64,000 nt of DNA from a virus. The position numbers and the translations under genes are program-made. Within the stretch, counting starts at the first letter, position 1. Each line of letters begins with the position of its first letter. This document shows, piece by piece, positions 16,849-62,448 of this stretch. The notes below the pieces were generated by a model. The model was not told where the DNA came from, made no database searches, and was given only the letters and a program-made list of their open reading frames with translations. The stretch lies in IMG/VR virus record IMGVR_UViG_3300020202_000001, positions 160,419-224,418 of that record. One strand, given 5' to 3'.

Positions 16849-18384
16849 ATGCCGAAACAGGAACGCAAGGCACGGAAGCCGGTCCCCGTCGCGAAGCGAC
16901 AGCCCCGCGACGAGGACGACGGCGAGGAGACGAAGGCCGCGAAGCCGGCCGCCAAGCCGGCAGCCTCGGAGAAGGCCACCGGGTCCGCCCCCGGCACGCT
17001 CAAGCGCCGCTTGAAGCCCCGGGAGGACCCCACCGGCGCGAGCACCGGTCCGAACGACCGTGTTCACGCCCCGCGGCCCGTCCACAGCCTCGACAACCGG
17101 GACCTCTCCAAGATCCCCAAGAAGGGCAAGCAGCGCCTCGCCGAGTGGCGGGGCCAGAACCACGGCAAGAAGCTCGACAAGTACATGCAGGGCATGATGA
17201 GTGCCTCGCGTCGAAAGTTCGGCCACAACGCCGTGTTCGCGGGGCACACCGACGAGAACATGATCGTCGGCATCCCGTGCCCGCTCGCCTTCGAGTACCT
17301 GCTCTGCCAGGACGTCTTCCCCCTCGGCCTCATCTACCAGATCGTCGGTCTGGCGGGCTCGCTCAAGAGTTCGCTGATCTACGAGATCATGCGCTGGTTC
17401 CGCAACGCCGGCGGCGGCTCGCACCTTGAGGAGGTGGAGACGAAGTTCTCCCCAGAACTCATGCGGTCGATCGTCGGGTACGCGGAGGACGAGACGAACG
17501 TCATCGTCGACCGGTGCGACTCGGTCGAGGACTGGCAGCGGAAACTGCTCTACAACATCGACCAGCAGAAGGAGCTGCTGACCTGGGAGGACAAGGCCAA
17601 CAAGATCCCGGGTCCGGGTCGAACGGTGCCCATCTGCTTCGCGGTCGACAGCGTCAGCGGCAAGCTGAGCATGGAGACGCAGGAGAAGGTCAACGACCAG
17701 GGCTTCCACGGCCGGTCGTTCCCGATCGAGGCGATGAGCATCACCGGGTTCATGAAGACCGTGCCCCAGATGATCGACGGGTGGCCGTTCGCGCTGGTGC
17801 TGAACAACCACCTGAAGATGGGCAAGGACGACCAGGGCCACGACGTCCGGCGGATCACCGGCGGCGCGGGCCTGAACTTCCAGGAGTCGTTCGAGCTGGA
17901 GACGAAGGTCCGCAAGTCGAAGATCGAGTGCTCCGAGTGGGAGGGCATCCAGATCGGCATCCGCTGCACGAAGAACTCGTTCGGCCCCACGCACCGCCGC
18001 ATCGACGCACGCATGCTGTGGTGGGAGGAGATGAACGAGGAGACGGGCGACTACGACCAGATCACCCGCTGGGACTGGCACTGGTCCACCGTGCAGCTGC
18101 TGACCGGCGAGAACATGCTGAGCGCCATGATCCGGGCTCGGCTGAAGGAAGCCGGCGTCCACGTCGACGCGCCGAAGAAGGCCGACGTGGAGAACCTCGC
18201 GTGGAGCAAGAACCTCGGCATGAAGAAGGAAGACGCCGTGCCGTGGAGCGAACTCGGCGCGATGATCGCCAAGGACACCGTTCTGTTGAACACCATCAGG
18301 CAGTGCCTCGGCATCAAGCGCCGCCCGCTCCTGCAGGGCGACTACCTCCAGCAACTGGAAGGGCTGCGAGAGCAGCTCCCGTGA
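16849..18384 (+). CDS. RecA/UvsX-like recombinase
   Basis: This 511-aa protein has an N-terminal disordered Lys/Ala/Pro region (about residues 1-90). A RecA-type ATPase core follows: Walker A GLAGSLKSS at 167-175, Walker B region PICFAVDSVSG, FALVLNNHLK and a GGAGLNF segment corresponding to the RecA loop after the ATPase core. It would load on single-stranded DNA and drive strand exchange and recombination-dependent replication. The gene follows the putative SSB, matching the usual functional pairing. The C-terminal ~150 residues are unlike bacterial RecA and more like phage UvsX variants. Confidence 0.82.
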   Translation: MPKQERKARKPVPVAKRQPRDEDDGEETKAAKPAAKPAASEKATGSAPGTLKRRLKPREDPTGASTGPNDRVHAPRPVHSLDNRDLSKIPKKGKQRLAEWRGQNHGKKLDKYMQGMMSASRRKFGHNAVFAGHTDENMIVGIPCPLAFEYLLCQDVFPLGLIYQIVGLAGSLKSSLIYEIMRWFRNAGGGSHLEEVETKFSPELMRSIVGYAEDETNVIVDRCDSVEDWQRKLLYNIDQQKELLTWEDKANKIPGPGRTVPICFAVDSVSGKLSMETQEKVNDQGFHGRSFPIEAMSITGFMKTVPQMIDGWPFALVLNNHLKMGKDDQGHDVRRITGGAGLNFQESFELETKVRKSKIECSEWEGIQIGIRCTKNSFGPTHRRIDARMLWWEEMNEETGDYDQITRWDWHWSTVQLLTGENMLSAMIRARLKEAGVHVDAPKKADVENLAWSKNLGMKKEDAVPWSELGAMIAKDTVLLNTIRQCLGIKRRPLLQGDYLQQLEGLREQLP

Positions 18385-29025: not shown

Positions 29026-29826
29026 GTGGCACGCTCGCTCAAGATGCGGTTCCACCTGCCGGACCCCGCCAGCGACCTTAGGTGGACGCTCAAGCGGCTC
29101 CGGCCGGAGGACAAACTGTACGTCGGCATCGACCCCGGCATGACCGGGGCGATCGCCTTTGTGCCCACGCGGCGGAAGCTCGACCCGGTGATCGTCGACA
29201 TCCCGACCAAGACGTCGAGGGTGAAGACGACCCGCAAGGGCAAGGCCGTGATGGGGAACCGCAACGAGTACGACCACGCGAAGATCGTCGCCATCCTCGA
29301 CCCGCTGATCGACTACCGGGAGAAGGTCGTCATCTGCCTCGAACGCGGCCAGCCGTACCAGGAGGACACGCCCAAGACGGCGTTCCAGGTCGGCGTCGGG
29401 TTCGGCATGTGGGGGCTGTACTTCGCGGCGTTCGGCCTGCGGGTCGAGGAGATCAAGCCGGCGGTGTGGAAGCGACGCATGGGCCTGAGCGGCGGGTCCG
29501 AGAACAAGGACTACAGCCGCTCGCTGACCATGCGGCTCTACCCCGGGGCGTGCCACTTCGTGGAGTTCGTCGGGGACCACAACCGGGCCGAGGCCGTGCT
29601 GCTGGCCGAGTACCAGCGGCGGCTCGACGCGAACGACCACAAGTGGCCGAAGCCGAAGCCCAGGCCCCGCAAGGTCGGCCCGCCCCCGAAGGGCGGCAAG
29701 GGCCTCGGGAACCTGAAGCGGACGCGGAAGGTCAAGCTGAAGACGGACCCGACGATCGCCCGCATGATGAAGGGACTCAAACCCAAACGGAGCCGGCGGA
29801 AGCGCGGGCCTGTACCACTCACATGA
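29026..29826 (+). CDS. RuvC-like Holliday junction resolvase/nuclease
   Basis: This 266-aa RNase H-fold nuclease has its catalytic acids visible as Asp36 (YVGIDPGMTGAIAF), Glu106 (VICLERGQP) and Asp184/Glu189 (DHNRAEAVLLAEY). It continues with a Lys/Arg/Pro-rich tail of ~70 residues, likely for DNA binding. It would cut branched DNA produced by recombination before packaging. The start is GTG. The stop overlaps the next start (ATGA). Confidence 0.85.
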   Translation: MARSLKMRFHLPDPASDLRWTLKRLRPEDKLYVGIDPGMTGAIAFVPTRRKLDPVIVDIPTKTSRVKTTRKGKAVMGNRNEYDHAKIVAILDPLIDYREKVVICLERGQPYQEDTPKTAFQVGVGFGMWGLYFAAFGLRVEEIKPAVWKRRMGLSGGSENKDYSRSLTMRLYPGACHFVEFVGDHNRAEAVLLAEYQRRLDANDHKWPKPKPRPRKVGPPPKGGKGLGNLKRTRKVKLKTDPTIARMMKGLKPKRSRRKRGPVPLT

Positions 29827-50514: not shown

Positions 50515-53500
50515 ATGAGCATGATCCCCGGACAGCAGATGGGCGGACCGATGGGTAGCCCCGGCATGGGCATGGCCCCGAGCATGAGCGGCAGCATGGC
50601 GTTCCCCCGCAGCCTGTTCGGTGGCATGGGGCGAGGCATGAAGGCACCGCCCAACCCGGCCGCACACCCCCAGGCACCCCAGAGCCAGCCCGCCACCGCA
50701 GACGTGGTCGGGCAGATGGCACAGCAGGCCCACCAGCAGAACGCCCAGGCCAAGATCGCCGGTTTCGAGGCGCGCCGTAACGAGCCCGGTCTGCAGCAGC
50801 CCAGCAGCGTCGACCCGGTGAAGACGGCCTACGAGCAGTATCAGGCCCAGCTAGGCCAGAGCCAGAGCACGGGGAGCACCGTTGCCCAGGCCCAAACCGG
50901 GGTGGACGGCCTCCCCAAGGGCCAGAAGACGGCGGCGGCTGCCGTAACTGCTGCTGCCTCGACGGCGGCGGCGGATTTCCACGGCAATCCGTCCACATGG
51001 GCCGCCCTTCGAGCCCTGCCACTAACGAACAAGCGCGCCAGCGCCGTGCCGCCCCCCGCCCAGGCCCTCCCCGCCGACCCGGGCATGGGGCCGATGAGCA
51101 CGGCCATCTCCGCACCGCCCGCAGCACCGGCAGCGGCGGCTCCGGCACCCGTTGGAGGGACGCCCCCAGCGCAGCCGGACCCCGCCATGGGCGGACAGGC
51201 GGGCGGGATGGCCCAGGCTCCGGCCCCTGCCCCGGCGGCGGGCGGGATGGCGGCACCGGCACCGGCACCGGGCATGCCGCCCGTCCCCGGTCAGGCACCG
51301 GCCCAGATGCCCCCGGGCACGATGCAGCAGGACGCCGGCGTGCAGCAGTCCATGGGGGAACTCTTTCAGGAAGCGAACGCTCCCGACTCCGCAGGTGACG
51401 ACATGAAGTTCCAGAACATCGTGCAGGCCTCCGACCACTGGGGGCTCGAACGCTTCGCGAAGACCGCCGCGCCGGGCGACCTGTTCGACGTCGAGGGCGA
51501 CCTCGCCGCGATGGACGCCGAGCAGCAGCCCGCCGTGAAGCAGAAGCCCGCCCTCCCGCCCGTGGCCGCCAAGCCGCCCGCGACGCGTCCGGCGGCCCCC
51601 GCCACGCAGCCCGCAGGAGCCCCGCAGGGCGTTCGACCCCCTCAGGGCACACCCCAGGCCCCGAAAATCGCTCCTGGGCCGTCTGGTAGCCTCCCCGGGG
51701 CATCCCGGCCGCCCGTCCAGCCGCGTCCCGTGCCGGTTCAGCCCGGTGCGGGGCGGGCTCAGCCGCTGCCGACCGCCCCGCCGGCCGCCAAGCCCGTGCC
51801 CGTGCGTCCGCCCGCCACCCGTCCGGCCCCGGTCGCCCCCGGCTCGGGGATGATTAACGGGAAGCCGGCGAGCCAGGTGCTCAAGGGCATCCCGAAGCAG
51901 GGCTCGACCGTGCAGGACGACGCGGCCGAGGCGGCCCTCCGCACGTTCGTGTTCGGCAAGCAGGCGTGGCAGGACAACGGCGTGAAGGACCGCACCTCGG
52001 CGAGCGGCGAGAGCACGAACGTCGGGTTCGCCCACCGCAACGACGACTACGACCGCGGCCCGGCCGCGTGGGAGAACAGCGCGAAGTACCTGAAGCACGG
52101 GGCCAAGGGCGGCGACCGCCGCATCCCGTCGAGCAGCACCACGAAGCTCGCCAAGGCCCGCCAGGGCGAGACGACGTTCGGGCAGGACAGCAAGCCGGGC
52201 GACAAGCTCGCCCAGCTCGTGAAGAAGATCCTGTCCAAGCGGGGCGTGAAGCCCGCCCCGGGGACCAAGCAGGCGGCCAACCTCGCCAACGAGGCCAAGC
52301 GGCAGGGCATCTACCAGGGGGCGACGCAGGCCCCGGCACCGGCCCCCGCCGGCCGCCCCGCCGCCGCGACCAAGCTCCCGCCGATGGTGACGGGTGCCGC
52401 CCCGGCCATGCCGAAGGCGGCCGGGTACGGCGCGTTGGCCGGTGTCGGGGCCGCCCTCGGCGGCCTGCTCGGCGGCGGGGCGTACGTGGCTGCGAACCCG
52501 ACCGCCCCCTCGCGGCTGGCGGCGATGGGCACGGACTCCACCGCCTTCCCCGGGGCGGTCAACAGCGTCGGCGGCGGGGCGTTGCTCGGCGGGGCCGGCG
52601 GTGCCCTCGTCGAATACCTCCGCCGCCGCAAGGCCGAGGCGGAACAGCCGGCGACGCTCCCGGGCACGGCCAAGGCGGCCGCCGCGGTCGCCGCCAAGAA
52701 GCCGTTCCCCGCCACGGCCGGGCTCCTGCAGACGGAGAACGACCTGCGGGAGGACGAGGAGGCCGAGAAGGTGGCCCTGACCGTCGAGGACGGCGGGCTG
52801 CCGAGCCGCGCCCTGGCGAACACGGTCGGGCACGTCGGCAACACGCTCGGGCTGGCCGGGCCGATCATGTCCCTGCGGTCGTACGTGAACCCGCAGGGCA
52901 CGCCGCAGCGGCGGCAGAAGCACGAGGAGTCGGCCGGGCTGCTGGAGGCGGCCGAGCCGGACGCCCTCTCGGGCACGAAGCTCCGCCTCGGCGGGTCGGA
53001 CCTGGTCGACGACCTCCTGTGGAAGCGGGAGGAGCCCGGGCAGGACCTCCCGTGGACGCAGCAGATCGGCGGGCGGAACTTCCAGAACCCCCGCACCGGG
53101 CCGCTCGGCAAGGCGCTGGGACTGATCTCGACCCCGCTGGCCGCCCTGCAGGGCAACCTGCTGCGTGCGCCGCACTACAACCCCGAGACCGACGTCGCCA
53201 CGAACTACTGGGACGAGCGGGGCGTGACCGAGCACGAGCTGGGCCACGCGATCGACTTCAACACCGTGTCGAGCGAGAAGGGCAAGGGCAAGGTCAGCGA
53301 CTCGTGGCTCGGCCGCCAGGGCCGCGGGACGGTGCGGGACCTGTACCGCCTCGCCTACGGCATCCCGGGCGTCAACCTGTGGCACGAGGCCCAGGCGAAC
53401 CGCAAGAGCTGGAAGGCCCTCGAATCGCAGCTCGGCAAGGGGAGCGACAAGCTCCTGGAGCACGAGTACGACCGGGCGAAGGTCCTGCCGGCCGGGTACG

Positions 53501-54159
53501 GCTCGTACATCGGCAACACGCTGTCCCCGCTCCTCGGCCCGGCCGGGGCGATCGGCGGCATGGTCGGCGGCAAGGTGGTCGGCACCGCCCGCCGCGACGC
53601 GATCGAGAGCGAGCAGCGAGCCCGGGCCGCCGAGAAGCGCCGGGGGTGGAGCGAGCGTGACGGCGACAACGACGGGCACGTCAACGACGGCCGCCCGGAC
53701 GAGCGGGACTACCGCAAGGCCGCCGGCTTCCTCGACAACGTCAAGAACACGGACTGGAAGGCCGCCCTCCCGGGCGTCGCCGGCCGGGCCGGGGTCGGGG
53801 CGGCGCTGGGCGGCGGCGTGGCCGGGATCGCCCACCTGATGAAGGGCGACGAGGAGAAGAAGCGGAAGGGCAACGGTGCCCTGGCCACGGTCGGCAAGGG
53901 AGCCCTGCTCGGCGGCGGGATCGGGACGGGCATCGGCCTGTCCCGCGAGGTGGTCGGCCCGGCCCTGAAGAAGGGGTCGGCCGTCGACCGGCTCGTCAAG
54001 CGTGCCGCCCTCCGCGCGTTCGTGAAGAAGGCGGCCGTCACGCCGGGCCTGGCCCAGCGGCTGCGGAAGATGAAGGCGGAGAAGACCGTCCGCCAGTACC
54101 AGCCCGCCACGGACTCGATCCGCAGCGGGGACAGCGACAACGACGTGAAGGCGGCCTGA
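50515..54159 (+). CDS. Large virion-type protein with HELGH metallopeptidase motif, 1214 aa
   Basis: The protein begins with a Gly/Met/Pro/Ala-rich ~420-residue region. Glycine-rich hydrophobic segments suited to membranes occur at about 638-660 (ALAGVGAALGGLLGGGAY) and near 1090-1150 (VGAALGGGVAGIAHLM, GALLGGGIGTGIGL). HELGH (907-911) within VTEHELGHAIDFN looks like a zincin motif, and RDGDNDGHVNDGRPDE resembles an EF-hand/dockerin calcium loop. Candidate roles are injected internal protein, tape-measure-related protein or cell-wall/protein-processing virion enzyme. The exact role is unknown. Its stop lies in palindromic copy 8. Confidence 0.72.
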   Translation: MSMIPGQQMGGPMGSPGMGMAPSMSGSMAFPRSLFGGMGRGMKAPPNPAAHPQAPQSQPATADVVGQMAQQAHQQNAQAKIAGFEARRNEPGLQQPSSVDPVKTAYEQYQAQLGQSQSTGSTVAQAQTGVDGLPKGQKTAAAAVTAAASTAAADFHGNPSTWAALRALPLTNKRASAVPPPAQALPADPGMGPMSTAISAPPAAPAAAAPAPVGGTPPAQPDPAMGGQAGGMAQAPAPAPAAGGMAAPAPAPGMPPVPGQAPAQMPPGTMQQDAGVQQSMGELFQEANAPDSAGDDMKFQNIVQASDHWGLERFAKTAAPGDLFDVEGDLAAMDAEQQPAVKQKPALPPVAAKPPATRPAAPATQPAGAPQGVRPPQGTPQAPKIAPGPSGSLPGASRPPVQPRPVPVQPGAGRAQPLPTAPPAAKPVPVRPPATRPAPVAPGSGMINGKPASQVLKGIPKQGSTVQDDAAEAALRTFVFGKQAWQDNGVKDRTSASGESTNVGFAHRNDDYDRGPAAWENSAKYLKHGAKGGDRRIPSSSTTKLAKARQGETTFGQDSKPGDKLAQLVKKILSKRGVKPAPGTKQAANLANEAKRQGIYQGATQAPAPAPAGRPAAATKLPPMVTGAAPAMPKAAGYGALAGVGAALGGLLGGGAYVAANPTAPSRLAAMGTDSTAFPGAVNSVGGGALLGGAGGALVEYLRRRKAEAEQPATLPGTAKAAAAVAAKKPFPATAGLLQTENDLREDEEAEKVALTVEDGGLPSRALANTVGHVGNTLGLAGPIMSLRSYVNPQGTPQRRQKHEESAGLLEAAEPDALSGTKLRLGGSDLVDDLLWKREEPGQDLPWTQQIGGRNFQNPRTGPLGKALGLISTPLAALQGNLLRAPHYNPETDVATNYWDERGVTEHELGHAIDFNTVSSEKGKGKVSDSWLGRQGRGTVRDLYRLAYGIPGVNLWHEAQANRKSWKALESQLGKGSDKLLEHEYDRAKVLPAGYGSYIGNTLSPLLGPAGAIGGMVGGKVVGTARRDAIESEQRARAAEKRRGWSERDGDNDGHVNDGRPDERDYRKAAGFLDNVKNTDWKAALPGVAGRAGVGAALGGGVAGIAHLMKGDEEKKRKGNGALATVGKGALLGGGIGTGIGLSREVVGPALKKGSAVDRLVKRAALRAFVKKAAVTPGLAQRLRKMKAEKTVRQYQPATDSIRSGDSDNDVKAA

Positions 54160-57674: not shown

Positions 57675-58367
57675 GTGCAAGCCACCACCTTCGAGACGTA
57701 CACCCCGCCGCTCACCCCCGACCTCGGCCTCCGCGTCGGCGACCAGGCCCTGTTCGGCGTGTTCCTCGCCACCGACCAGGACCTCGACCGCCCGGTGCGG
57801 GTGTGGGTCAAGCCGAGCGACGGCCTCCAGGTCACGCCCCGCCTGCTCCAGCTCTCCCCGCAGGCCCGCTCGGCCACGTTCGGCGTGACCGCCGCGGCCG
57901 TGGGGCGGAACACGCTGCGGTTCGAGAACGACGGGGACCTGCGGAACCCGCCGCCGGTCGAGTTCGGGTCGTACCGCCTGCGGGAGGACGGCCAGCCGCT
58001 GGTCCTGCCGCCCGCCGTCGAGCCCGAGCCCAAGGCCGAGGAGCGGAAGCCCGAGCCGACGCCGCCGGCCGTGGACGCGCAGCCGGCCAGCCCGCCGCCC
58101 CCGCCGGACGACGGCTCGGCCCCGATGCCCCCGGAGATCGTCCCGAACGGCGGGCCGTTCACCCACCCGGTCACGGTCGAGCTGCGGTGCGAGATCCCGG
58201 CCTGCGAGATCTGGTACACGCTCAACGGGGCGGACCCCGGCGTGAACGAGGGCTACCCGTACGTCGAGCCGTTCGTCGTGCACAAGAACACCATGGTGCG
58301 CGCCGTGGCCGTCCGCAACGGGCTGGCCAGCCAGCACGCGGTCGCCCGGTTCGTGAAGCGAGGCTGA
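57675..58367 (+). CDS. Protein with chitobiase C-terminal-like beta-sandwich, 230 aa
   Basis: The start is GTG 57675. An N-terminal beta-rich domain (VRVWVKPSDGLQVTPRLLQL) is joined by a ~45-residue Pro/Glu linker to a C-terminal domain (about 153-228). The latter fits the CHB_HEX_C/Fn3-associated pattern: PNGGPFTHPVTVELRCEIPA, IWYTLNGADPGV and MVRAVAVRNGL. Such domains are adhesive or carbohydrate-related, so this may be a virion surface or decoration protein. Confidence 0.7.
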   Translation: MQATTFETYTPPLTPDLGLRVGDQALFGVFLATDQDLDRPVRVWVKPSDGLQVTPRLLQLSPQARSATFGVTAAAVGRNTLRFENDGDLRNPPPVEFGSYRLREDGQPLVLPPAVEPEPKAEERKPEPTPPAVDAQPASPPPPPDDGSAPMPPEIVPNGGPFTHPVTVELRCEIPACEIWYTLNGADPGVNEGYPYVEPFVVHKNTMVRAVAVRNGLASQHAVARFVKRG

Positions 58368-58370
58368 GCC

Positions 58371-59081
58371 GTGGCCGACGAGACGATCGTGCTGTTCGGC
58401 ACCCACGCGTGGGACGACCTGGCCCGCCACCACTGGGCGCTGCTGACGCGGCACAACCCGGGCCTGCGGTGCGTGCCCGTGGCGTGGGCGGGCCGCAACC
58501 TGCCGGCCGAGGTGCGGACGGTGCGGCACCCGCCGTTCCGCACCAGGGAGCCCGACTGGGAGTGGGCGAGCCCCGACAAGCTGCTCGTCGGGGCCGTCCG
58601 CCAGCTCGACCTGCGGGCGGACCGCTACCTGTGGCTGGAGTACGACACCGAGGTCACCGGGGACCTGTCCGTCGCCCTCGCCGCCGCCTGGCACGCGGAG
58701 CTGGGCTGCAGCCGGTTCTTCACCCGCAAGGACGTCCCGGTGTGGAACCACTGGCACCGGTGCCCGAGCTTCCACCGCGGGTGGACCGACCCGGCGAGCT
58801 ACGCGGTCTGCCACCCGTTCAACGGCCTGCTGTTCGACCGCCGCACGATGGAGCGGTTCTGCCACCACGGCGACGAGCTTGACTACTGCGAGGCCCGCGT
58901 CGGGACGTTCGCCCTCCGCCACGGTATTGTGCCCGTCCAATACGACCCGCAGATGCGGTTCAACCACTGGATGGAGTCGCGGCTCGACCCGAAGGTCAGC
59001 TGCGGCATGCGGCACCCCACGAAGACGATCCGAGGAGAGACGCCCCGTGCTCATGTTCACCTACGTCTACCGGGATGCTGA
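58371..59081 (+). CDS. Glycosyltransferase-like protein, 236 aa
   Basis: The start is GTG 58371. ETIVLFGTHAWDDLARHHWA begins a GT-like fold. RYLWLEYDTEVTGDLSVALA holds the acidic motif (YDTE), CHPFNGLLFDRRTMERF is the acceptor segment, and YDPQMRFNHWMESRL follows. It shares features with other small phage glycosyltransferases. The last 35 nt overlap the next gene in the +1 frame, so the C-terminal PRAHVHLRLPGC may be unstructured. Confidence 0.62.
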   Translation: MADETIVLFGTHAWDDLARHHWALLTRHNPGLRCVPVAWAGRNLPAEVRTVRHPPFRTREPDWEWASPDKLLVGAVRQLDLRADRYLWLEYDTEVTGDLSVALAAAWHAELGCSRFFTRKDVPVWNHWHRCPSFHRGWTDPASYAVCHPFNGLLFDRRTMERFCHHGDELDYCEARVGTFALRHGIVPVQYDPQMRFNHWMESRLDPKVSCGMRHPTKTIRGETPRAHVHLRLPGC

Positions 59082-61038
59082 CCTCCTCCCGCACTTCGTC
59101 GACCACTACGCCGCCCGGGGCTGCCGGGTCGTCGCGATCGTCAACCTGAACACCGCCCCGCCCGGCCTCCGCGAGAAGGTCGAGGCCGTCCTCGCCTCCC
59201 GCCCGGCCGAGTTCCAGGTGCTGGCGTGGGAGGACGTGCCGTACGACGTCCGCACCGCCACCGACGTGCGGCTGGAGGCCCACCGCCGGCGGCTCGTGCC
59301 CGAGGGCGGCTGGTGGGCCAAGGCGGACGTGGACGAGCTGGTCGAGCTGCCGGCCGGGCACGCGTCGTTCCCCGCCCTCGCCGGGGCCGCCGATGCCTCG
59401 GGGGCGAACTGCGTGCACGGCTACTGGGTCGACCGCGTGGCCGCCGGCGGCGAGATGCCCGCCGTGCTGCCGGGCGTCCCGCTCGACTGGCAGTTCCCGC
59501 TCGGCGGGGACGTGACCCGCCGCCTGTGCCCCCGGGTGAACCACCGCAAGCTCGTCCTGTTCAAGGCCGTGCCGGGCATGACGATGATCGGCGGCTGCCA
59601 CGGCTGCCCCGGCGTCGAGCAGCGGCTGCGGGGCGTCGACCTACGCGTCCACCACTTCAAGTGGACGGCGACGCTCGGGGACCGCCTGCGGGACCGGTGG
59701 GAGCGGTACCGCGACCTGGACGTGCCGTGGTGGCGGGAGAGCAAGGACATCTGCGAGGCGCTGGAGCGGAACGGGTGGCGGGTGCCGACCGACCGGCTCC
59801 GCGAGGTCAAGCCGGCCCCCAGGCACTCGCACAAGGGCTGGTCGGTCGATGCCCAGGACGTGGCGGCCATGCGGGAGGTGGCGACGACGCACGGGGCCAG
59901 GACGGTGCTGGAGTTCGGCCCCGGGGCGAGCACGGCCGCCTTCCTCGACCTCGGGCTCGACGTGACCTCGTACGAGCACGACCCGGCGTGGCTGGCGAAG
60001 CTGCGGGCCGAGCTGCCGGCGGGGGCCAAGCTGCACGGGTACGCCAACGCCGAGCGGCTGTCGCTGCCGGAGATCGAGGGGCGGGCGTTCGACCTCGCCC
60101 TCGTCGACGGCCCGCCCGGCATCCCCGAGGCCCCGCCGTACAACCGGTTCAACGCCGCCGCCGTCTGCGCCGCCGCCTCGCCGCTGGTGCTCGTGCACGA
60201 CGCCCGCCGCGACCGCGAGCGCGCCCTGGTCGCCGGGTACGCCGCCAGGGGCTGGGGCGTGCGGGCGTGGGACACGCACCGGGGGCTCGCCCTGCTGACC
60301 CGCCCCGTGCGGATCTCGTACTGCACGACGTGCGGCAACCGCCTCGACGACCTGAAGGCCACGCTGCCGGTCAACCTGTCCCTGCTCGGCCCCGGCGAGG
60401 AGCTGGTGCTCGTCGTGTACGCCGACCGCAGCGGCACGGCCGAGTGGGTCACGGCCGCGTTCCCCCGCGAGCTGGCCGCCGGCCGCCTCCGCCTTTACAC
60501 GGCCAGCGCCGACCGCTTCCTCCGATCGCACGCCAAGAACGTCTGCCACCTGCTCGGGCGGGGCTCGGTGCTGGTCAACGTCGACGCCGACAACCGCCTG
60601 GACCCCCGCTACCTGTACAAGCTCCGCCGCCACGACTTCCGGCACGCCGCCGTCCTGTACGCCGGCTACGGCGCGGGCGGGCACAAGGGGCGGGTGGCGA
60701 TCACGTCGGCCCTCTTCCGCCAGATGGGCGGGCACAACGAGCAGCTGCGGGGGTACGGGCAGGAGGAGGTCGACCTGATCCGCCGCGTGTGGGCCGTGGG
60801 CGTGAACACCGTGCCGCTCTGGGTCGACCCGGCGACGGCCATCCCGACCAGCGACGAGGTGCGGGCCGAGGCGAACGACCCGGGCCTCTCCGCCCAGGAC
60901 TCCGACCGCCTCCACGCCGAGCTGACGCAGGCCGACGTGGACGCCGGCCGGCTCGTGGCGAACGCCGGCCAGCCGTGGGGCGTCGCCGACCTCGTCGACC
61001 ACGCCGGCAGGGCTCGGGCGGCGGGTTGTTTTCCCTGA
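59047..61038 (+). CDS. Three-domain glycosyltransferase-methyltransferase-glycosyltransferase fusion
   Basis: This 663-aa protein starts at GTG 59047 (GAGGAG upstream). Residues 1-270 form a GT92/GT2-like domain (MFTYVYRDADLLPHFVDHYA; WWAKADVDELVEL; HHFKWTATLGDRL). About 285-415 is a SAM methyltransferase (TVLEFGPGASTAAFLDLGLD, FDLALVDGPPG). About 420-663 is a second GT with Galactosyltransferase-C-like features (VNVDADNRLDPRYLYKLRRH; GGHNEQLRGYGQEEVDLIRR). It would build and methylate a glycan in one chain. Domain limits are approximate. Confidence 0.78.
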   Translation: MLMFTYVYRDADLLPHFVDHYAARGCRVVAIVNLNTAPPGLREKVEAVLASRPAEFQVLAWEDVPYDVRTATDVRLEAHRRRLVPEGGWWAKADVDELVELPAGHASFPALAGAADASGANCVHGYWVDRVAAGGEMPAVLPGVPLDWQFPLGGDVTRRLCPRVNHRKLVLFKAVPGMTMIGGCHGCPGVEQRLRGVDLRVHHFKWTATLGDRLRDRWERYRDLDVPWWRESKDICEALERNGWRVPTDRLREVKPAPRHSHKGWSVDAQDVAAMREVATTHGARTVLEFGPGASTAAFLDLGLDVTSYEHDPAWLAKLRAELPAGAKLHGYANAERLSLPEIEGRAFDLALVDGPPGIPEAPPYNRFNAAAVCAAASPLVLVHDARRDRERALVAGYAARGWGVRAWDTHRGLALLTRPVRISYCTTCGNRLDDLKATLPVNLSLLGPGEELVLVVYADRSGTAEWVTAAFPRELAAGRLRLYTASADRFLRSHAKNVCHLLGRGSVLVNVDADNRLDPRYLYKLRRHDFRHAAVLYAGYGAGGHKGRVAITSALFRQMGGHNEQLRGYGQEEVDLIRRVWAVGVNTVPLWVDPATAIPTSDEVRAEANDPGLSAQDSDRLHAELTQADVDAGRLVANAGQPWGVADLVDHAGRARAAGCFP

Positions 61039-61081: not shown

Positions 61082-62236
61082 ATGCCGAAGATCCGCTACC
61101 AGAAGATCACGATCCGCGACGCCGACAAGCTCGACGCCATCGAGAAGGCGAACGTGCTGATCGAGTCCTACCAGTCGCAGGGGTACATGCTCACCCTGCG
61201 GCAGCTCTACTACCGGTTCGTCGCCGGCGACCTCTTCCCCGCCAGCCGCAAGTGGTCCAAGATCCCGGGCACGGACAAGTGGGTCCGCGACCCGAACGGG
61301 ACGATCAACGCCGAGCCGAACTACAAGTGGCTCGGGGACGTCGTCAGCGACGCGCGGATGGGCGGGTTCATGGACTGGGAGGCGATCGAGGACCGCACCC
61401 GCGAGGTCGACGAGGTCCCGCACTGGGAGACGCCGGCCGCGATCCTCTCGGCCTGCCACAACAGCTTCCGCGTCGACAAGTGGCTGACCCAGCGGAACCG
61501 GATCGAGGTCTGGGTCGAGAAGGACGCCGTCGAGGGCATCGCCAAGCAGGCCGCCCACGCCCACGACGTGCCGATCTTCTCGTGCCGCGGGTACAGCAGC
61601 CTGTCGAGCCTGTGGGAGTCGGCCAACCGCCTGAAGAAGCACATCAAGAACCGCCAGCGGGTCGTAATTCTCCACCTGGGCGACCACGACCCCTCGGGCA
61701 TCGACATGAGCCGGGACATCGAGGACCGGCTGAACACGTTCATCCACACCGACCTCCTGCACGAGACGATGGAGGACATCAAGGACTCGGGGCTGACGTT
61801 CCGCGACGACAAGGGCAAGGTGAAGGTCGACATGGTCTGCGCCCGGGCCGAGGACCTGTTCGGCATCCCCGCCGGCCGCTTCCTCGAAGGCAAGATGATC
61901 GAGGTCCGCCGCATCGCCCTGACCATGGAGCAGGTGGAGCAGTACAATCCCCCGCCCAACCCGGCGAAGACGACCGACGCCCGGTACAAGAAGTACCAGG
62001 AGGAGCACGGCGACGAGAGCTGGGAGCTGGACGCGCTGGAGCCCTCGGTGCTGGACCAGCTGATCCAGGACTCGATCGAGGGGATCAAGGACGCCGACCT
62101 GTACGCCGACCGCGAGGAGCTGGAGAACAAGCACCGGAAGAACCTCAAGATCTGCTGCGACAACTGGGACAACGGGCTGGCCGAGGTCGTGGCGAACTAC
62201 AAACCCAAGCCCGCCAAGAAGGGTAAGAAGAAATGA
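61082..62236 (+). CDS. Spo11/TopoVI-A-like TOPRIM protein
   Basis: This 384-aa protein has LTLRQLYYRFVAG (Tyr43/Tyr44), closely matching the R-x-[IL]-Y-Y helix that holds the catalytic Tyr in Spo11/topoisomerase VI subunit A. A TOPRIM domain follows with VEKD (Glu146) and GDHDPSG (Asp201, Asp203). It could cleave or bind DNA, or act in RNA/nucleotide chemistry as a TOPRIM enzyme. No TopoVI B (GHKL) partner is visible in the window. The C-terminus is Lys-rich. The start is ATG 61082 and the next gene overlaps by 4 nt. Confidence 0.75.
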   Translation: MPKIRYQKITIRDADKLDAIEKANVLIESYQSQGYMLTLRQLYYRFVAGDLFPASRKWSKIPGTDKWVRDPNGTINAEPNYKWLGDVVSDARMGGFMDWEAIEDRTREVDEVPHWETPAAILSACHNSFRVDKWLTQRNRIEVWVEKDAVEGIAKQAAHAHDVPIFSCRGYSSLSSLWESANRLKKHIKNRQRVVILHLGDHDPSGIDMSRDIEDRLNTFIHTDLLHETMEDIKDSGLTFRDDKGKVKVDMVCARAEDLFGIPAGRFLEGKMIEVRRIALTMEQVEQYNPPPNPAKTTDARYKKYQEEHGDESWELDALEPSVLDQLIQDSIEGIKDADLYADREELENKHRKNLKICCDNWDNGLAEVVANYKPKPAKKGKKK

Positions 62237-62448
62237 CGATCACCGGCACCGTGAAGTCCGTCCAGATCATCAGCTACACCAACGGCGGCCCGAACAAGGA
62301 GCCCACGCCGGGCACCGTGGAGGTCGGCGTCGTGCTGGGCGAGTGGCACAACGACGGGGAGCTGAAGTTCCGCGTCCCGCACGGCAAGGCGGCCCCGTAC
62401 CAGGTCGGCCGCGAGGTCACCCTCACCATCAAGCCGAAGGGCAAGTGA
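62233..62448 (+). CDS. Small hypothetical protein, 71 aa
   Basis: The start overlaps the TOPRIM protein stop (ATGA), so coupling is likely. A beta-rich small protein (TITGTVKSVQIISYTNGG; GREVTLTIKPKGK), which could be an OB- or SH3-like fold. No family is recognised. It may be an accessory of the TOPRIM protein. Confidence 0.6.
   Translation: MTITGTVKSVQIISYTNGGPNKEPTPGTVEVGVVLGEWHNDGELKFRVPHGKAAPYQVGREVTLTIKPKGK

Follow-up and report, generated by a model that had tools for sequence, protein, structure and literature searches.

The question raised by this locus is whether a phage gene that resembles the A subunit of topoisomerase VI (Topo VI-A) and Spo11 encodes an enzyme that could cut DNA without a B subunit. 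The locus lies in a 64,000-nucleotide stretch (the window, bases 160419–224418 of a 224,418-base IMG/VR virus record), with the gene near the right end of the record. This record is a linear IMG/VR contig that ends on the right where the window ends, so it may lack sequence on that side. A sequence-only reading had described the product as a Topo VI-A/Spo11-like TOPRIM protein of a phage, and this description is upheld by the sequence motifs, by a match to phrog_6247 and by Topo VI-A being the best structural match. The features, in window positions, are:

61082–62236, + strand: Mini-A (Topo VI-A/Spo11-like) gene, 384 aa, ATG to stop; phrog_6247 match at E 3.7e-95; GC3 0.98
61121–61474, + strand: predicted N-terminal winged-helix (CAP-like) region, about residues 14–131, with R40 and Y44; pLDDT 90.6
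61193–61219, + strand: TLRQLYYRF motif, residues 38–46, with R40 and candidate nucleophile Y44 (codon 61211–61213)
61475–62086, + strand: predicted TOPRIM domain, about residues 132–335, from the structural match to Topo VI-A
61514–61525, + strand: VEKD, residues 145–148, with TOPRIM acid E146, from homologue and Topo VI-A alignments
61679–61699, + strand: GDHDPSG, residues 200–206, with TOPRIM acids D201 and D203, from homologue and Topo VI-A alignments
62021–62032, + strand: WELD, residues 314–317, with acids E315 and D317, invariant among homologues
62233–62448, + strand: 71-aa orphan ORF; its first 4 bases (ATGA) overlap the Mini-A stop

The Mini-A gene and its family

The ORF at 61082–62236 has GC contents of 0.60, 0.36 and 0.98 at codon positions 1, 2 and 3, and this strong coding signature identifies it as a real gene. 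The 71-aa ORF that overlaps its stop is likely co-translated with it; a search for known relatives of this small ORF found none. The genes flanking Mini-A in the window are mostly orphans or glycosyltransferase-like, the latter including the ORF directly 5′ of it. Both ends of this 719-aa ORF (58879–61038) give matches below the cut-off to glycosyltransferase-like families (PF13704 and PF02709). By eye its middle part resembles a methyltransferase, and we take a fusion to be possible. A 230-aa protein at 57675–58367 carries a chitobiase/beta-hexosaminidase C-terminal-like domain (PF13290, E 8e-11) and is possibly a virion surface protein. A tRNA-Pro called by ARAGORN at 50841–50925 (− strand), within an ORF of the opposite strand (50515–54159, +), is probably spurious.

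Single-sequence scans of the window protein against Pfam, NCBIfam and PADLOC give zero matches even at E 10, and searches of PDB sequences with the single sequence and with a profile give chance matches only. The protein does match PHROG 6247, labeled 'DNA topoisomerase', at E 3.7e-95, as does the Mini-A of Pseudomonas phage NP1, an example of the family named in a review (PMC7614492). By tblastn, 68 named phage records are matched, every one at <60% identity; NP1 aligns with 91% of the query at 35.3% identity (E 2e-58). With Topo VI-A as the outgroup, the Mini-A sequences, including NP1 and the window protein, form their own clade with a support of 0.93. Counts for the family reach at least 591 confirmed IMG/VR stretches and 325 stretches in cellular genomes, the latter from many bacterial phyla and some archaea.

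Mini-A is described, in what the reviews citing Takahashi et al. 2020 relay of it, as a truncated, B-less homologue of Topo VI-A from archaeal viruses and phages (PMC8185306, PMC11302465, PMC7614492), and the passages of these reviews that treat the archaeal-virus Mini-A report no characterization of it. We found no activity or function for Mini-A in the literature, where Takahashi et al. 2020 is represented by the citing reviews. Judged by its sequence, the window protein is thus a member of a published and widespread family and not a new kind of protein. Like the NP1 protein, it is phage-borne, combines a winged helix with a TOPRIM domain, lacks a B subunit and belongs to the same PHROG. It differs from most Mini-A relatives in two extra insertions, at about residues 51–76 and 225–270, the first of which is common only to some of its nearer kin.

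Active-site residues and predicted structure

Two questions to address for a catalytic reading are (i) are the cleavage residues of Topo VI-A retained and (ii) are they placed in a comparable fold. For the first question, R40, Y44, E146, K147, D201, D203, P204–G206, W314, E315 and D317 are 100% invariant in 170 non-identical homologues. The patterns used to retrieve these homologues included the VEKD, GDHDPSG or WELDAL motifs, so that E146 and D201/D203 are invariant partly by construction. R40 and Y44 were outside the retrieval patterns, and their invariance is the sole fully independent test of conservation that the alignment offers. The sequence-only reading had pointed to the double tyrosine of TLRQLYYRF. 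The conservation separates the two residues: Y43 is F in five homologues, H in two and otherwise Y, whereas Y44 does not vary, and the candidate nucleophile is for this reason Y44.

A joint alignment relates these positions to the known enzymes. Because PF04406 matched nothing in the first twelve cellular genomes tried, the archaeal Topo VI-A sequences were gathered with PF21180. R40, Y44, E146, D201, D203 and P204 fall in the same columns as residues that are fully conserved in 16 archaeal Topo VI-A sequences, in agreement with the earlier assignment of TOPRIM acids to VEKD and GDHDPSG. By motif, the Mini-A residues R40, Y44, E146, D201 and D203 would correspond to R102, Y106, E202, D254 and D256 of Methanosarcina mazei Topo VI-A, for which roles are given in PMC13040014. 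For WELD, the alignment with the 16 sequences offers no matching column; by inference, E315 and D317 may correspond to E342, the clasp acid of Topo VI-A. In profile comparison, hhalign matches Topo VI-A over 185 columns at E 0.0018 with a probability of only 15%, in a register that places TLRQLYY on TLRELYY and GDHDPSG on TDGDPW. At the level of sequence, the Topo VI-A/Spo11 catalytic set is complete in the window protein.

Two of the archaeal Topo VI-A proteins (L211 934–2031 and L221 1480–2577) are about 28% identical to other archaeal Topo VI-A and carry SIRQLFY and VEK instead of TLRELYY and IET, with VEK as in Mini-A. Their source genomes each have two matches to the Topo VI-B transducer.

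For the second question, an AlphaFold2 model of the window protein has a mean pLDDT of 93.5; the alignment behind it left out five rows from the annotated phage collection. Topo VI-A is the best PDB match of the model by both aligners, and Foldseek ranks Topo VI of M. mazei first (E 1.5e-3, prob 0.99); a BFVD fold search gave no useful match. The structure comparison proposed in the sequence-only reading bears out the Topo VI-A assignment for the predicted TOPRIM domain, which aligns with 1d3y_A (Topo VI-A) at Z 11.8 (rmsd 2.9, 140 aligned) and with 9o0g_A at Z 11.6, and is less decisive for the N-terminal domain. Residues 9–105 align with residues 66–158 of the Topo VI-A structure 2zbk_A at Z 4.6 (rmsd 4.8, 79 aligned), a weak match that is not top-ranked and is level with unrelated winged helices. 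The model supports a winged-helix fold for this domain, and its identification as a Topo VI CAP domain specifically would follow from the motif rather than from the structure comparison. Given the hhalign probability of 15% and the weak winged-helix match, the equation of Y44 with the Topo VI-A tyrosine draws mainly on motif, spacing and conservation.

In structural alignments the window protein and Topo VI-A of archaea and plants are about 8–18% identical. They share the TOPRIM fold, the R-x3-Y motif, the TOPRIM acid triad and the domain order; the window protein differs in having neither the extended N-terminal region nor a B subunit. Spo11 agrees with Topo VI-A in catalytic residues and in the order of its domains. 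It is, however, a eukaryotic, meiotic protein, and its likeness to the phage protein is drawn via Topo VI-A.

The TOPRIM comparison also bears on a different reading, in which the protein would be a metal-only TOPRIM endonuclease and a relative of the Wadjet plasmid-defense nucleases JetD/MksG, with the tyrosine not serving as a nucleophile. JetD and MksG share the Topo VI-A type of TOPRIM fold, and the MksG nuclease (8b7f) fits the predicted TOPRIM domain nearly as well as Topo VI-A does (Z 11.2 versus 11.8). Weak matches are seen elsewhere in the family, to the PADLOC JetD model in up to 11 of 42 members (best JetD E 1.4e-4) and to DUF2399 in 10 of the 42, and hhalign aligns one JetD-family protein at E 0.0016 over the TOPRIM part only. 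The window protein itself, however, matches neither JetD nor DUF2399 (PADLOC and Pfam, E ≤ 10). The CAP domain of MksG has no candidate catalytic tyrosine (PMC10123090), whereas Mini-A keeps both R40 and Y44 invariant and in Topo VI-A columns, which makes the metal-only reading less likely. MksG also acts with SMC-like partners, and none of the Wadjet type was recognized among the recurrent neighbors of Mini-A. We consider this alternative improbable and favor a cleavage chemistry based on Y44.

B-subunit search and genomic neighborhood

Searches of the whole 224-kb record extend the earlier observation that no GHKL partner lies in the window. HATPase_c (PF02518) is absent from the record at E ≤ 10, GyrB (PF00204) and the Topo VI-B transducer (PF09239) are absent from it as well, and no fused B-type domain is found within the 384 aa of the protein. 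The Topo VI holoenzyme has a Topo VI-B subunit; in contrast, its transducer is matched in none of 24 Mini-A virus records (the window's own among them, and five deposited as complete phage genomes), while all six archaeal positive controls are matched (6/6). HATPase_c was matched, below the cut-off, in one of 26 Mini-A records. This 151-kb virus record (G016) encodes a GHKL protein at L045 1375–3183 and has no Topo VI-B transducer match. The GHKL protein may be of the phage rIIA type.

One sub-case of the favored chemistry with another outcome is a B-less topoisomerase, which would nick, swivel and reseal to relax phage DNA in front of replication forks rather than make permanent breaks. The PHROG label is in line with this outcome, as are the replication genes that neighbor Mini-A. 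Topoisomerase VIII, a type IIB relative on mobile elements described alongside Mini-A, has a B-like ATPase part, whereas the window protein has none. The Microscilla marina enzyme relaxes DNA without ATP, and cleavage by the Ammonifex degensii enzyme is ATP-independent (PMC7614492); SPO11, for its part, is able to reseal nicks (PMC11922746). Against a topoisomerase stand the absence of a Topo VI-B transducer for strand passage (0/24) and the lack of any report of DNA relaxation by Mini-A itself in the literature we searched. We regard this outcome as possible, though doubtful.

The 204 Mini-A loci have no universal neighbor. The commonest neighbor family, a SNF2-type helicase, occurs in only 29/204, and the neighborhood therefore does not fix the role of Mini-A. 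The next recurrent neighbors are integrase-like proteins, C5 methylases, UvrD, SF2 helicases, YqaJ exonuclease, RecT, ThyX and DNA polymerase A, and no dedicated partner gene was found across the 204 loci. In phage NP1, Mini-A is flanked by DNA ligase/ThyX on one side and by a Sak4 annealing protein on the other, with a Cas4-like exonuclease close by. The genes flanking Mini-A in the window do not recur beside it in relatives beyond single weak matches. Elsewhere the window encodes replication and recombination genes: an SbcC-like ATPase (658–2829), helicases including a DnaB-like one, a primase, a DNA polymerase, a UvsX-like recombinase (16849–18384), a thymidylate synthase and a RuvC-like resolvase (29026–29826). 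That the phage has recombination genes of its own would fit a role of Mini-A in recombination without proving it.

The neighbors also bear on the idea, part of the sequence-only reading, of an anti-host DNA-cleaving factor, which might attack plasmids or the host chromosome. Unprotected DNA would be harmed by a Spo11-like enzyme that lacks a B subunit, and the C5 DNA methylases near Mini-A in 13 of the 204 loci could shield the DNA of the phage. Most loci lack such methylases, however, and the neighbors are mainly replication and recombination genes rather than host-takeover genes. Matches in genome contigs, some with integrase-like genes nearby, suggest prophage carriage. An attack on the host thus seems very unlikely, and the preferred reading remains Y44-dependent cleavage in the service of phage DNA metabolism.

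A proposed model for cleavage without a B subunit

We propose that Mini-A is probably a tyrosine-dependent, homodimeric DNA cleaver that works without a B subunit and serves phage replication or recombination. All of the Topo VI-type cleavage residues are present and strictly constrained, so catalytic competence is likely, and the cleavage chemistry of the window protein is strongly implied by its sequence. We infer the dimerization, the covalent cleavage and the biological role as follows: (i) the winged-helix domain would supply the nucleophile Y44, and the TOPRIM domain would bind metal through E146, D201 and D203; (ii) two subunits would form hybrid active sites, each combining Y44 from one protomer with the TOPRIM acids of its partner, which would hold the DNA that Y44 attacks; (iii) cleavage would leave the protein attached through Y44 to the 5′ ends of the DNA and (iv) the resulting breaks or nicks would most likely be used in phage replication or recombination, to start strand exchange or to relieve topological stress.

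No GHKL B subunit would be needed for the cleavage step, as is the case for SPO11 dimers in vitro. In vitro, a SPO11 dimer on its own cleaves DNA and remains on the 5′ ends (PMC11922746), and because it cuts unaided by partners, the requirement for a B subunit is no longer an objection to the model. A narrower version of the model, which we advance tentatively and hold to be less likely than the general one, is that Mini-A is a functional counterpart of Spo11, a stand-alone homodimer that would initiate recombination of the phage, without a B subunit, by making double-strand breaks capped with protein.

The window adds no new system. It contributes one divergent, intact member of the Mini-A family, together with family-wide evidence in the form of the missing B-subunit transducer (0/24) and the invariant Y44 (170 homologues). 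Present in hundreds of phages, Mini-A poses a direct question: is a module of the Topo VI-A type enough, by itself, to cut DNA in phages? If its function is Spo11-like, Mini-A would be a model for a topoisomerase cleavage module acting as an initiator of recombination outside meiosis.
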